Below, piece by piece: positions 9,773 through 53,210 of a stretch of DNA of 64,000 bases; the first letter of the stretch is position 1, and each line of letters starts with the position of its first letter. A model generated the notes under the pieces. It saw nothing but the letters and a program-made list of their open reading frames with translations, did not search any database and was not told where the DNA came from. The DNA is taken from the NCBI RefSeq assembly GCF_015097055.1, contig NZ_AP023366.1, positions 1,612,001 through 1,676,000 of the forward strand, read 5' to 3'. The stretch comes from Effusibacillus dendaii. Its GTDB lineage: Bacteria; Bacillota; Bacilli; Tumebacillales; Effusibacillaceae. The position numbers were made by a program, and so were the translations under genes.

Positions 9773-9990
9773 CTTTTGGCTATGTATCCCCCGCCCATGC
9801 CGTCGATCCGGATTGTTTTCTGAACCCGCCAAAGCAGGTGGGCGACCCGTTATTGCTTGCTGACGTCCCATTCGTCCAAAAAAGGAGGTGGGCATGCCAT
9901 CCGCAATAAGTTCTGTCTCCCCGAAAACATGTATAGGTTCAAAACAAGGTACCGCTCTGACGCACACGGCAGGTTAAAACGTTCTTTGTG
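9773..9990 (-). ncRNA. ssrS: 6S RNA
   Basis: 6S RNA binds the housekeeping RNA polymerase holoenzyme and mimics an open promoter. The 5' segment CCTGCCGTGTGCGTC can pair with the 3' segment GACGGCATGGGCGGG to close the molecule. Internal stretches such as TTGTTTTGAACC, ATGCCCACCTCC and GCCCACCTGC match what I recall of Firmicute 6S RNAs. A sigma-A promoter lies just upstream and an intrinsic terminator downstream. No convincing protein is encoded. Ends are set from promoter and terminator. A covariance-model search would settle the class. Confidence 0.72.
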
Positions 9991-18601: not shown

Positions 18602-18888
18602 AAACTCTAAAGAAAAACAAAAAGCCCTTCGCCCCAGAAGGACGAAAGGCATCTTTCGCGGTACCACCTTCATTGATACGCCGCCGTTTCCACACGTAAA
18701 ACGCTTCTGCAACGCGACATACCCACTCAATCCGAATAACGGTCGGCAGCCGTCCTGCTTTTCACAGGAATGTTCAGGAGCCGGTTTCGGTCTGATTTCC
18801 GGCGGAATCTTGCAGCCGATGGATTCCGCTCTCTGCCCGTTCCTACAGACGTACTCTCTCCATCATCACAACGTATAGCTTATTGTTC
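18602..18888 (-). promoter_or_regulatory. Proline-specific T-box leader of proBAC
   Basis: On the minus strand the leader has an AGAGA motif before a GCGGAATC/GATTCCGC stem, a specifier region CCTGAAC with codon CCT (18776-18778), and the T-box core AAGGTGGTACCGCG (18657-18670). A terminator follows (GCCTTTCGTCC / GGGGCGAAGGGC, then TTTTT, about 18621-18651). Uncharged tRNA-Pro should stabilise the antiterminator and turn on proline synthesis. The CCT specifier agrees with the downstream genes. Confidence 0.92.
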
Positions 18889-49244: not shown

Positions 49245-50909
49245 TCAAGACAATAACCAAACTGCGGCAGAAATGATGGCTATCACACCACAGGCAACTG
49301 TATCACCGCGCCGCCAAATCAACGGTTTCCCGGATGTTCGCTCCACGTTCCGTTTATACCCTCTCGATTCAATCGCCGTTGCCAGTTCGTCCCCCATTTT
49401 CAGCATCAGGATCAAAAGCGCTGTCACAAGCATCCCCATCTGGCGGGGAGCCAGTCGCTTGAACCGACTGCCCTGCGGCATGCGAACGTGTAACGATTTG
49501 CGCAATTGGCTGATTTTGATCAGAATCAAGGGCACAAATTGCAAAGCGATGGAAACGGCAAGTGACAGATCGCGGGTAGGAAGCCCGATTTTTTGCAGCG
49601 GCCGGATGGCCCACTCAAAACCTTCCCGTAACGCCAGTCCCCCTGTTGTCCCTGCAAACAGAATCCCAAGGCAGATGACATACAAAAAGCGGGCCACCCC
49701 ATATCCTCCGCTTGCCATCCCCTGATAGGAAAGACCAAACCAACCGAAGGAGATGTCTGAATCCCCCAACGAGACAGCCGACACCGCCCAAAGAAACAGA
49801 AAAAGCGGCAAAAACGGCCGAATCGAGCGCCCTATTTTACGGATTGGCATATCGCTTACCGCAAACAGCGCGCACAAAACCGCATACGACAATGTCAATA
49901 CCGAAAGGTTTGCCATCTGAATTCCTGCCAGCGACAAAACCACCATGCCCAGCCATTTGACGCGGGGATCCAATCGGTGCAAGAGAGACCGACGCTCTCT
50001 GTCCTGCCGGTCACCGGACTCGGCGCGGACTCCGGATTCAACACTGTTCGCCAATGGATTACCGTTTTCGGACGGAAGACAGGGCAGGCTTTTTTTCAAA
50101 GCAGTATCAGTTCCCGCAACGGAATCGAGGGAGTCCAACAACTCCTCAATCTGGAGAGAAATCTTCACATTCATTCCGTGATTCCGCAACTGCCAACCAA
50201 TCCGTGCGGCTGTCGGCAGAACGAGACCGGCATCTTGCAGAATGGCCGGCTGTTCAACAAGTGAATCCGGCCGACCGGCAAACGCCAGTTTCCCGTTGTA
50301 CAAAACCGCAACCTGATCAGCCAACGGAAAAAATGCGTCCAAGTCATGTGTCGCCACCACTACCGTAATCCCCAACTCCGACAGTTCCCGCAAAATCTCC
50401 AACAATCCCCGTTGCGCCGACGGATCCAATCCGGCAGTCGGCTCGTCCAGCAGCAAAAGCTGTGGCATAGGCGCGAGAGCAGCGGCAAGTGCCACCCGTT
50501 TTTTCTCGCCGCCGCTTAACAGAAACGGGGATCGCTGCAAAAAATCTTCCGGTTCCAAGCGCACCTGCCGCAGCGCCGCATCGATCAACCGTTGCCGCTG
50601 TTTTTGCGGAATGTTGCGCAACCGCAGCCCATATTCGATCTCCTCGCAAACGGTGCCAGCAAACAACTGGTGGTCCGGGTTCTGGAAAACAAAGCCGATT
50701 TCGCGTTTGCTGGATGCGTCCCCGTCAAATTGCACCGAACCGCTTGCAGGCAGCTCCAGTCCGCCGATCACCTGCAGCAGGGTGGACTTGCCGCTCCCCG
50801 TCAGTCCGCAGACAACCGTCAGGCTGCCCGTTTCAATCTGCAGATTCACCTCTTGCAAAATCGGTTCCTGCCCATACCGAACTCCTACATTTGTCAGTGT
50901 AACCCGCAT
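49245..50909 (-). CDS. ECF transporter ATPase fused to T component (EcfA2-EcfT fusion)
   Basis: The 554-residue protein joins two ECF modules. Residues 1-245 form an ABC ATPase: Walker A CGLTGSGKSTLLQ, Q-loop FVFQNPDHQLFAGTVCEEIE, signature LLSGGEKKRVALAAALA, Walker B LLLLDEPTAGLDPSA and ATHDLD. A polar linker (about 260-315) leads to HRLDPRVKWLG, the start of an EcfT protein with several membrane helices and the coupling motif AIESRGYKR. In most bacteria these are separate genes. ATG 50909 follows GAGGAGGTGGCAGGG and overlaps ecfA1 by 16 bp. Confidence 0.9.
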   Translation of the reverse strand: MRVTLTNVGVRYGQEPILQEVNLQIETGSLTVVCGLTGSGKSTLLQVIGGLELPASGSVQFDGDASSKREIGFVFQNPDHQLFAGTVCEEIEYGLRLRNIPQKQRQRLIDAALRQVRLEPEDFLQRSPFLLSGGEKKRVALAAALAPMPQLLLLDEPTAGLDPSAQRGLLEILRELSELGITVVVATHDLDAFFPLADQVAVLYNGKLAFAGRPDSLVEQPAILQDAGLVLPTAARIGWQLRNHGMNVKISLQIEELLDSLDSVAGTDTALKKSLPCLPSENGNPLANSVESGVRAESGDRQDRERRSLLHRLDPRVKWLGMVVLSLAGIQMANLSVLTLSYAVLCALFAVSDMPIRKIGRSIRPFLPLFLFLWAVSAVSLGDSDISFGWFGLSYQGMASGGYGVARFLYVICLGILFAGTTGGLALREGFEWAIRPLQKIGLPTRDLSLAVSIALQFVPLILIKISQLRKSLHVRMPQGSRFKRLAPRQMGMLVTALLILMLKMGDELATAIESRGYKRNVERTSGKPLIWRRGDTVACGVIAIISAAVWLLS

Positions 50910-51718
50910 AACAGCCCTGCCACCTCCTCTTCCCGCAGAGGTAAGGAGGGCAGCGGAATACCCCGTTCCCTTAGCCAACACCCGATTTTGACCACAGGCG
51001 GCAATTCCCAGCCCAGCCGCTGCGGGACATCAGAGTCATAAAACAAATGGCGGGGTGCCCCGTCATATTCAATTCCACCCGCATCCATTACGACCGCCCG
51101 ATCCGCCTCTAACAGCTCATCCAGCCTCTGTGTAGCCCATATCACAGTCATGCCGTTTCGCCAAAGCGTTCGAGCCAACAGGTAAATATCGCGCCGCCCC
51201 GCCGGATCGAGCATCGATGTGGCTTCATCAAACAGCAAACAGTCCGGCTCCAATGCCAGACAACTGGCGATTGCCAACCTCTGTTTTTGTCCCCCGGATA
51301 ACTCGGATACAGAAGCCGACCTTTTTTCGCGTAATCCAACTTGATGCAGCGCCCGTTCGATTCGCTCTTCCATTTGCGCCCGATCAATCCCTCTGTTTTC
51401 CAGTCCAAACGCCACATCTTCCTGCGGCGTTGTACCGATGGCCTGCGCGTCCGGATTTTGAAATACCACTTGCACACGGAGTTTGACCTGTTCCCTGTTT
51501 GACGCATTCGTCAAATCCATACCCGCTACTGTCAAACGTCCTTCCGAAGGAACCAGCAGCCCGTTTATCAGCCGAAGCAAGGTGGATTTTCCCGAACCGT
51601 TTGGACCTGTCAGCACCACCCATTCCCCTTTTTGAATGGTAAGATCGATTCCGTTTACAGCCTTTATCAAATTGGCACCGTCCCGATAAAAACAGGACAA
51701 ACGTTCTGCCTGAATCAT
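50894..51718 (-). CDS. ecfA1: ECF transporter ATP-binding protein EcfA1
   Basis: A 274-residue ATPase with Walker A TGPNGSGKSTLLRL, Q-loop VVFQNPDAQAIGTTPQEDVA, signature VSELSGGQKQRLAIASCLAL and DEATSMLDPAGR. In the switch position it has ATQRLDEL instead of a His-containing H-loop. It pairs with the fused A2-T protein and overlaps its start. Divergent bioY implies the module serves biotin uptake and perhaps other S components. Confidence 0.9.
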   Translation of the reverse strand: MIQAERLSCFYRDGANLIKAVNGIDLTIQKGEWVVLTGPNGSGKSTLLRLINGLLVPSEGRLTVAGMDLTNASNREQVKLRVQVVFQNPDAQAIGTTPQEDVAFGLENRGIDRAQMEERIERALHQVGLREKRSASVSELSGGQKQRLAIASCLALEPDCLLFDEATSMLDPAGRRDIYLLARTLWRNGMTVIWATQRLDELLEADRAVVMDAGGIEYDGAPRHLFYDSDVPQRLGWELPPVVKIGCWLRERGIPLPSLPLREEEVAGLLCGLH

Positions 51719-51769
51719 AAAAATCCAACCTTCTCAAGCACGCATGCACATGCTATCATTCAAATGAAA

Positions 51770-51800
51770 TAGTCAACTATTTTAATCTTATCGGTTAACA
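51770..51800. promoter_or_regulatory. BirA-type biotin operator between ecfA1 and bioY
   Basis: TAGTCAACT (51770-51778), 14 bp, then GGTTAACA (51793-51800). The right half is a good match to the BirA operator half-site (GGTTAACAA) and the left half is degenerate (consensus TTGTTAACC). It lies 19 bp before bioY, just ahead of its AAGGAGG, and next to a minus-strand TTGACT that may drive ecfA1. Confidence 0.6.
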
Positions 51801-51818
51801 TTTAAGGAGGCAAGCCAT

Positions 51819-52376
51819 ATGGCAAAATGGACCATTCGCGGGCTGGTTTTCAGTGCTTTGTTTGCGGCAATTACCGGCGCCCTCAGCTATCTGAAAATCA
51901 CTCTTCCGTTCAGTCCGGTGCCGATCACGTTCTCGACGTTCGGTATTATGCTGGCCGGATCCATACTGGGAGCCCGCTACGGATTTCTGTCGATGCTGCT
52001 GGTCGTGATTCTGGAAGTAGCCGGAATTCCCTTGCTGGAAGGAATTCCTGGAGTGGCACGAATCTATGGACCGACCGGCGGTTTTCTCTTGGCGTACCCG
52101 GTAGCTGCACTATTGATTGGGTTATTTGTGGAACGGATCAAACCGAACCGATGGCTGTTCGGCAAACTGTCGATTGTAAACTTCCTGTTCGGTTCCCTGT
52201 TTCTGTATCCGTCCGGGGTTGCCTGGCTCGCTCACATTTACCATTTCTCGCTTGCAAAAGCGCTCGCGGCCGGTTTCTGGCCGTTTTTGCCCGGTGACAT
52301 TTTGAAATCGCTGCTCTGTGCCGCCATTACAGTTGCCGTATGGCGTGTCTATCCGGTCGAACGGGTGAGCGGTTAA
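51819..52376 (+). CDS. bioY: Biotin ECF transporter S component BioY
   Basis: A 185-residue membrane protein with six helices. It starts MAKWTIRGLVFSALFAAITG and shows the BioY patterns LPFSPVPITFSTFGIMLAG, GARYGFLSMLLVVILE, GIPGVARIYGPTGGFLLAYP and FWPFLPGDILKSLLCAAI; the last Asp and Lys line the biotin site. TTAAGGAGG precedes the ATG. It needs the ECF ATPases and T protein encoded divergently. Confidence 0.94.
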   Translation: MAKWTIRGLVFSALFAAITGALSYLKITLPFSPVPITFSTFGIMLAGSILGARYGFLSMLLVVILEVAGIPLLEGIPGVARIYGPTGGFLLAYPVAALLIGLFVERIKPNRWLFGKLSIVNFLFGSLFLYPSGVAWLAHIYHFSLAKALAAGFWPFLPGDILKSLLCAAITVAVWRVYPVERVSG

Positions 52377-53047: not shown

Positions 53048-53190
53048 TTGACAATTTAAGAAAACTTCGGTATTCTAACTTTTGTAAAGAAGAAGCGCTC
53101 GCTTCTCACCTTCCTGCCAACGGCAGTCAGGTCACTGTGGCAATACGTTATGTCGTATTTCATGCGGGCGCATCGCGTCCGCTTTTTACT
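53048..53190 (+). promoter_or_regulatory. infC operon promoter and L20-type attenuator leader
   Basis: Promoter -35 TTGACA (53048-53053), 17-bp spacer, -10 TATTCT (53071-53076). The leader holds CTTCTCACCTTCCTGCC and GGCAGTCAGG, paired segments like those of the L20 leader. It ends in a terminator GCGGGCGC/GCGTCCGC followed by TTTTT (about 53163-53187). Excess L20 is expected to favour termination before infC. Class is judged by position and layout. Confidence 0.7.
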
Positions 53191-53210
53191 TTATTTGGGG
53201 GTGACTCACT

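Follow-up and report, generated by a model that had tools for sequence, protein, structure and literature searches.

A tethered EcfA2-EcfT protein in a probable biotin ECF importer of Bacilli, with a substituted H-loop in its EcfA1 partner

ECF transporters serve as targets for antibiotics and as models of transport by toppling. In the window analyzed here, a stretch of 64,000 nucleotides from Effusibacillus dendaii (NZ_AP023366.1, positions 1,612,001 to 1,676,000), a single open reading frame covers both an EcfA-type ATPase and an EcfT protein, raising the question of whether the two are genuinely fused and, if so, what kind of importer the fused chain belongs to. As read from the open frame, the gene, which we call ecfA2T, starts with an ATG at 50909 and encodes 554 amino acids followed by a stop, with a calculated product mass of 60,304 Da. 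The gene and its parts, in positions of the window, are:

49245-50909, minus strand: ecfA2T, encoding a fused EcfA2 ATPase, linker and EcfT, 554 amino acids (open frame and Pfam matches)
50124-50909, minus strand: EcfA2 part, residues 1-262 (ABC motifs all canonical; Foldseek match 4hlu_A)
49992-50123, minus strand: polar linker, about residues 263-306, ~44 residues (comparison of fused proteins; low pLDDT)
49248-49991, minus strand: EcfT (CbiQ) part, residues 307-554 (PF02361; solved EcfT chains)

Both halves of the protein matched Pfam families above the curated cut-offs, ABC_tran at residues 18-159 (E 2.9e-27) and CbiQ (PF02361) at residues 307-520 (E 2.7e-19). For the ATPase half the top NCBIfam model was ECF_ATPase_2 (TIGR04521), at 224 bits and under the equivalog cut-off of 330, and the top Foldseek match was the EcfA' chain of an EcfA-A' heterodimer (4hlu_A). 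Its motifs are all canonical: Walker A GLTGSGKST (residue 35), the Q-loop (74), the signature LSGGEKKR (131), Walker B LLLLDEP (151) and the H-loop ATHD (186). The T half could be aligned with solved EcfT chains (4hzu_T, E 7.9e-21) over a stretch running from the RLDPR motif almost to the C-terminus, and it contains LHRLDPR (310) and two coupling motifs, HVRMP (474) and AIESRGY (512). The first coupling motif (about 49476-49490) diverges from the ARG or similar motif of relatives and keeps the central Arg. An AlphaFold model, based on an alignment of the window protein with proteins of related loci only, had a mean pLDDT of 85.9, with two confident domains parted by a low-confidence stretch at residues 265-288 (pLDDT < 50). 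The linker, ~30 to ~111 residues long across the fused proteins, is predicted to be flexible. A preliminary description of this DNA had proposed that EcfA2 and EcfT are truly fused, with a polar linker, an AIESRGY coupling motif and a chain near 60 kDa, all of which is borne out by the Pfam and NCBIfam matches, the solved EcfT chains, the model and the calculated mass.

The fused gene is part of a cluster that also contains:

50894-51718, minus strand: ecfA1, 274 amino acids (TIGR04520, 283 bits)
51731-51759, plus strand: promoter-like site for bioY, TTCTCA-17-TATCAT, TG-extended (consensus match only)
51770-51801, no strand assigned: predicted BirA-type operator, TAGTCAACT-N14-GGTTAACAT (top-scoring site in the 64-kb window)
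51819-52376, plus strand: bioY, biotin S component, 185 amino acids (PF02632, E 6.3e-35)

The ecfA1 gene lies upstream of ecfA2T and overlaps its start by 16 nt, and the parts of an ECF transporter are all present at the locus: EcfT/CbiQ, two ECF-type ATPases and the S component BioY. The divergent arrangement of bioY and ecfA1-ecfA2T is shared by each of the 10 further genomes of the order that carry the fusion, and by almost every fused locus that was sampled in other families. This conserved layout keeps the genes for the S, A and T components together, as in group I. The site between ecfA1 and bioY has the form of BirA operators. It matches their consensus at 13 of 16 positions, and when the region was shuffled 2000 times, a score as high was reached in 2 cases. 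Most relatives have a comparable site in the corresponding position, several of these matching at 15-16 of the 16 positions, and no operator site was seen at this intergenic place in one part of the sampled fused clade (L187-L189 and L193-L197). The predicted operator is preceded by the promoter-like site for bioY, whose end lies 11 nt upstream of it, and TTGACT, which overlaps the left half-site, could be a -35 element for ecfA1. Rfam matches elsewhere in the window, a T-box leader (18635-18875, minus strand), 6S RNA (9784-9978, minus strand) and an L20 leader (53081-53196, plus strand), are ordinary for Bacilli.

To judge from gene content, ecfA1-ecfA2T and bioY most likely form a dedicated biotin importer, not a module shared by swapping S components, since the genome's one other EcfT belongs to a CbiMQO-type metal importer and no vitamin S component besides BioY turned up in the four families searched (PF02632, PF12822, PF09515 and PF07155). 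The genome encodes two CbiQ proteins, the second of which belongs to a cbiM-cbiQ-cbiO cluster beside urease; this cluster (L077:5498-8239, at 185.5-188.2 kb of the genome), next to an agmatinase-like gene and the urease genes, is by its gene content a metal ECF importer. BioY is the sole PF02632 protein in the genome. S components of families outside the search, such as QueT, ThiW, TrpP and others, could share the fused module. A rival explanation holds that the module is a shared (group II) one serving BioY and further vitamin S components, and adjoins bioY in position only. We consider it unlikely: it accounts for the presence of two different ATPases, A1 and A2, which group II modules also have, and for the lack of a second vitamin-type ECF module in the genome, but a search of the genome for PF12822, PF09515 or PF07155 found no further S component, two genomes of another family (G177 and G224) have a separate, unfused A1-A2-T locus beside the fused one, and BioY and the fused gene are absent together from a relative (G009). 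Swapping of S components on a shared module was set aside because no second vitamin S component was found in the families searched.

Two wider claims made for the fusion, that it constrains the swapping of S components and that it fixes stoichiometry, did not hold up. Almost every species sampled has the module in synteny with bioY, and in the window's genome no other vitamin S component (PF12822, PF07155, PF09515) was found. Because the module appears to be dedicated, its fusion reveals little about how S components swap on the shared modules of group II. In ECF complexes each T is in any case accompanied by one A2, so the fusion tethers EcfA2 rather than changing stoichiometry.

The fused gene might also be real while a separate EcfT, produced by internal initiation or by cleavage of the linker, provides the working subunits. 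The linker is indeed long, polar and predicted to be flexible, and in the window one weak in-frame TTG with AGGAG is found 48 residues before T, with no ATG and Shine-Dalgarno just 5' of the T half. However, an in-frame start with a Shine-Dalgarno match of at least 5 nt near the T half is present in only 10 out of 50 fused genes and lacking in the other 40, compared with its presence in 39 out of 84 unfused T genes. Moreover, the N-terminal segment typical of free EcfT is absent from the fused T, where the linker takes its place. We consider a separate EcfT quite improbable, and an internal start of T was rejected as a general feature, no general signal being present among the 50 fused genes.

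The fusion was identified in all four genomes of the window's genus (the other three at 47-52 % identity), in 11 out of 14 genomes of its order (10 besides the window genome) and, as a full-length match free of stops, in dozens of genomes from other families of the same class. Such conservation excludes chance or sequencing error. A sequencing or assembly frameshift that joined two separate genes, conceivable where A2 and T overlap in an unfused relative and a small indel could fuse the frames, has a negligible probability and was rejected given the conservation in genus, order and class, with an open fused frame in about 50 or more genomes at identities down to about 30 % and a window genome assembled as a single 3.45 Mb contig. 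The preliminary description had proposed looking in related genomes for the same fusion and in the linker for a stop or frameshift; the fusion does recur, the frame is open in the window, and the arrangement is not unique to this assembly.

In a tree of the ATPase and T parts from 50 fused and 83 unfused systems, the fused proteins formed one clade, with a support of 0.91 in one rooting and 1.0 in another and one change by parsimony. We infer that the EcfA2-EcfT fusion arose essentially once, in a single main origin. That homologues might always be split had been named as an objection to the fusion, and it is answered by the 50 sampled fused proteins. In one genome of the same order (G004) the cluster is alike except that A2 and T are distinct genes, the A2 stop overlapping the T start, which is likely the layout that preceded the fusion. 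Cohnella mopanensis (L114) is a named example of the fused gene; it came, together with most of the unfused controls, from a motif scan of genome contigs that used generic ABC motifs and was thus unselective.

Two further arrangements were observed. In a genome from another class of the phylum (G717), an EcfA2-EcfT fusion of 641 residues with a Gly/Ser/Thr-rich low-complexity linker is encoded at L251:5842-7764. It was placed just outside the main fused clade, with weak support (0.71), and no bioY was found within the 13 kb examined around it; taken together, these suggest that it may represent a second, independent origin. Its EcfA1 partner keeps the canonical H-loop His. In another genome (G226), one frame of 918 residues at L209:3999-6752 (also L252:10499-13252) comprises EcfA1, EcfA2 and EcfT, with a divergent bioY beside it. 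This candidate triple fusion was found in that genome only.

We then compared the ABC motifs of the two ATPases, using an alignment that covered every A1 and A2 domain. In the window, every motif of EcfA1 and EcfA2 is canonical except the H-loop His of EcfA1:

51128-51130, minus strand: codon CAG for Gln197 of EcfA1, at the H-loop switch position (alignment of EcfA1/EcfA2 domains)

The same His to Gln change is present in 40 out of 50 EcfA1 partners of fused proteins (window included), whereas the His is kept in 80 out of 80 unfused EcfA1 and in every EcfA2, including 50 out of 50 in fused systems. In all 80 unfused systems checked, the ATP-site residues that were read are canonical in both ATPases. 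Ten of the 50 fused systems have an altered EcfA2 signature (LSTG, LSEG, LSQG or LSHG), five of which keep the EcfA1 His, and one has an altered EcfA1 signature. Overall, the composite site made of the EcfA1 Walker motifs and the EcfA2 signature deviates in 45 out of 50 fused systems, and the opposite site is intact, for the residues read, in 49. Two unfused bioY-linked systems (L064 and L222) keep the EcfA1 His, which indicates, from these two cases only, that linkage to bioY does not by itself explain the loss. Since fusion and His loss occur in one clade, their association does not represent a set of independent events.

One substituted composite site opposite a canonical one is the pattern of ABC transporters with a degenerate ATP site, and TAP1 also has Gln at the H-loop position. 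The H-loop His of such heterodimeric transporters makes contact with the gamma-phosphate, and the degenerate site keeps its ATP bound (PMC12422388). Loss of the Walker B Glu is reported as a hallmark of degenerate sites in exporters (PMC7544095); this catalytic Glu is kept in 50 out of 50 EcfA1 partners. In the window both it and the EcfA2 signature are intact, so the EcfA1 site may still hydrolyse ATP, and because the Glu is retained, the safer inference is that hydrolysis at this site would be reduced rather than absent. We tentatively suggest, at slightly less than even confidence, that in a large clade of Bacilli the biotin ECF importer is based on a tethered EcfA2-EcfT chain and works, in the manner of TAP, with two unequal ATP sites, of which one hydrolyses and the other is degenerate, and that in one genome the whole A1-A2-T module is maybe a single polypeptide.

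Overall, the locus probably encodes a dedicated, BirA-regulated biotin ECF importer of three chains: BioY as the S component, EcfA1 and the fused EcfA2-EcfT. What the sequence itself shows of this proposal is the fusion, conserved and with one main origin, the gene cluster with divergent bioY, a site resembling an operator and an EcfA1 that lacks the H-loop His. When biotin is scarce, BirA would leave the intergenic operator and both divergent transcripts would rise. EcfA1 and the tethered EcfA2 domain would form a pair at the coupling helices of the fused T domain, on which biotin-loaded BioY would dock, and ATP binding and hydrolysis by the EcfA1/EcfA2 pair would drive toppling and release. 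The composite site that joins the EcfA1 signature to the Walker A, Walker B and H-loop of EcfA2 may carry out most of the hydrolysis. The opposite site, formed by the Walker motifs and H-loop Gln of EcfA1 and the EcfA2 signature, would mostly hold ATP, and the tether would keep EcfA2 on T. The asymmetric ATP site is in our view more interesting than the fusion itself. A natural lineage in which one ATP site departs from the consensus and A2 is tethered to T offers a system for examining if a single hydrolysis per cycle is enough for import and if the ATPases have to come off T, and the tether simplifies purification to three chains.

Fusions of ECF subunits are known in the form of two ATPases in one chain (PMC6828968, PMC5037267). 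Our literature search, with key early papers outside its reach, found no report that describes an EcfA-EcfT fusion or an ECF transporter with a degenerate site; the fusion itself must already exist among the annotated proteins of public genomes. The group II EcfA1-EcfA2-EcfT module (folate ECF structures 5d3m, 5jsz and 4huq) has the same three components in the same gene order, and among solved structures its EcfA1 and EcfT come nearest in sequence to the window's EcfA1 and EcfT part. The locus described here differs in that A2 and T form one chain, the EcfA1 H-loop has Gln for His and the module is linked to BioY and probably dedicated to it. BioMNY of Rhodobacter capsulatus, a group I biotin transporter (PMC3246461), likewise consists of a dedicated AT module and BioY, but with one type of ATPase (BioM) and a separate T (BioN) in place of two distinct ATPases, one of them fused to T. 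The group I thiamine transporter YkoEDC (PMC5037267) is likewise a dedicated ECF importer with a subunit fusion; in YkoD, however, two ATPases are fused to each other, whereas here the ATPase is fused to T. Finally, TAP-type heterodimeric ABC transporters (PMC12422388) likewise have deviations in one composite site only, with the other intact, but these degenerate-site systems are exporters, in contrast to the ECF importer described here, which keeps the catalytic Walker B Glu.
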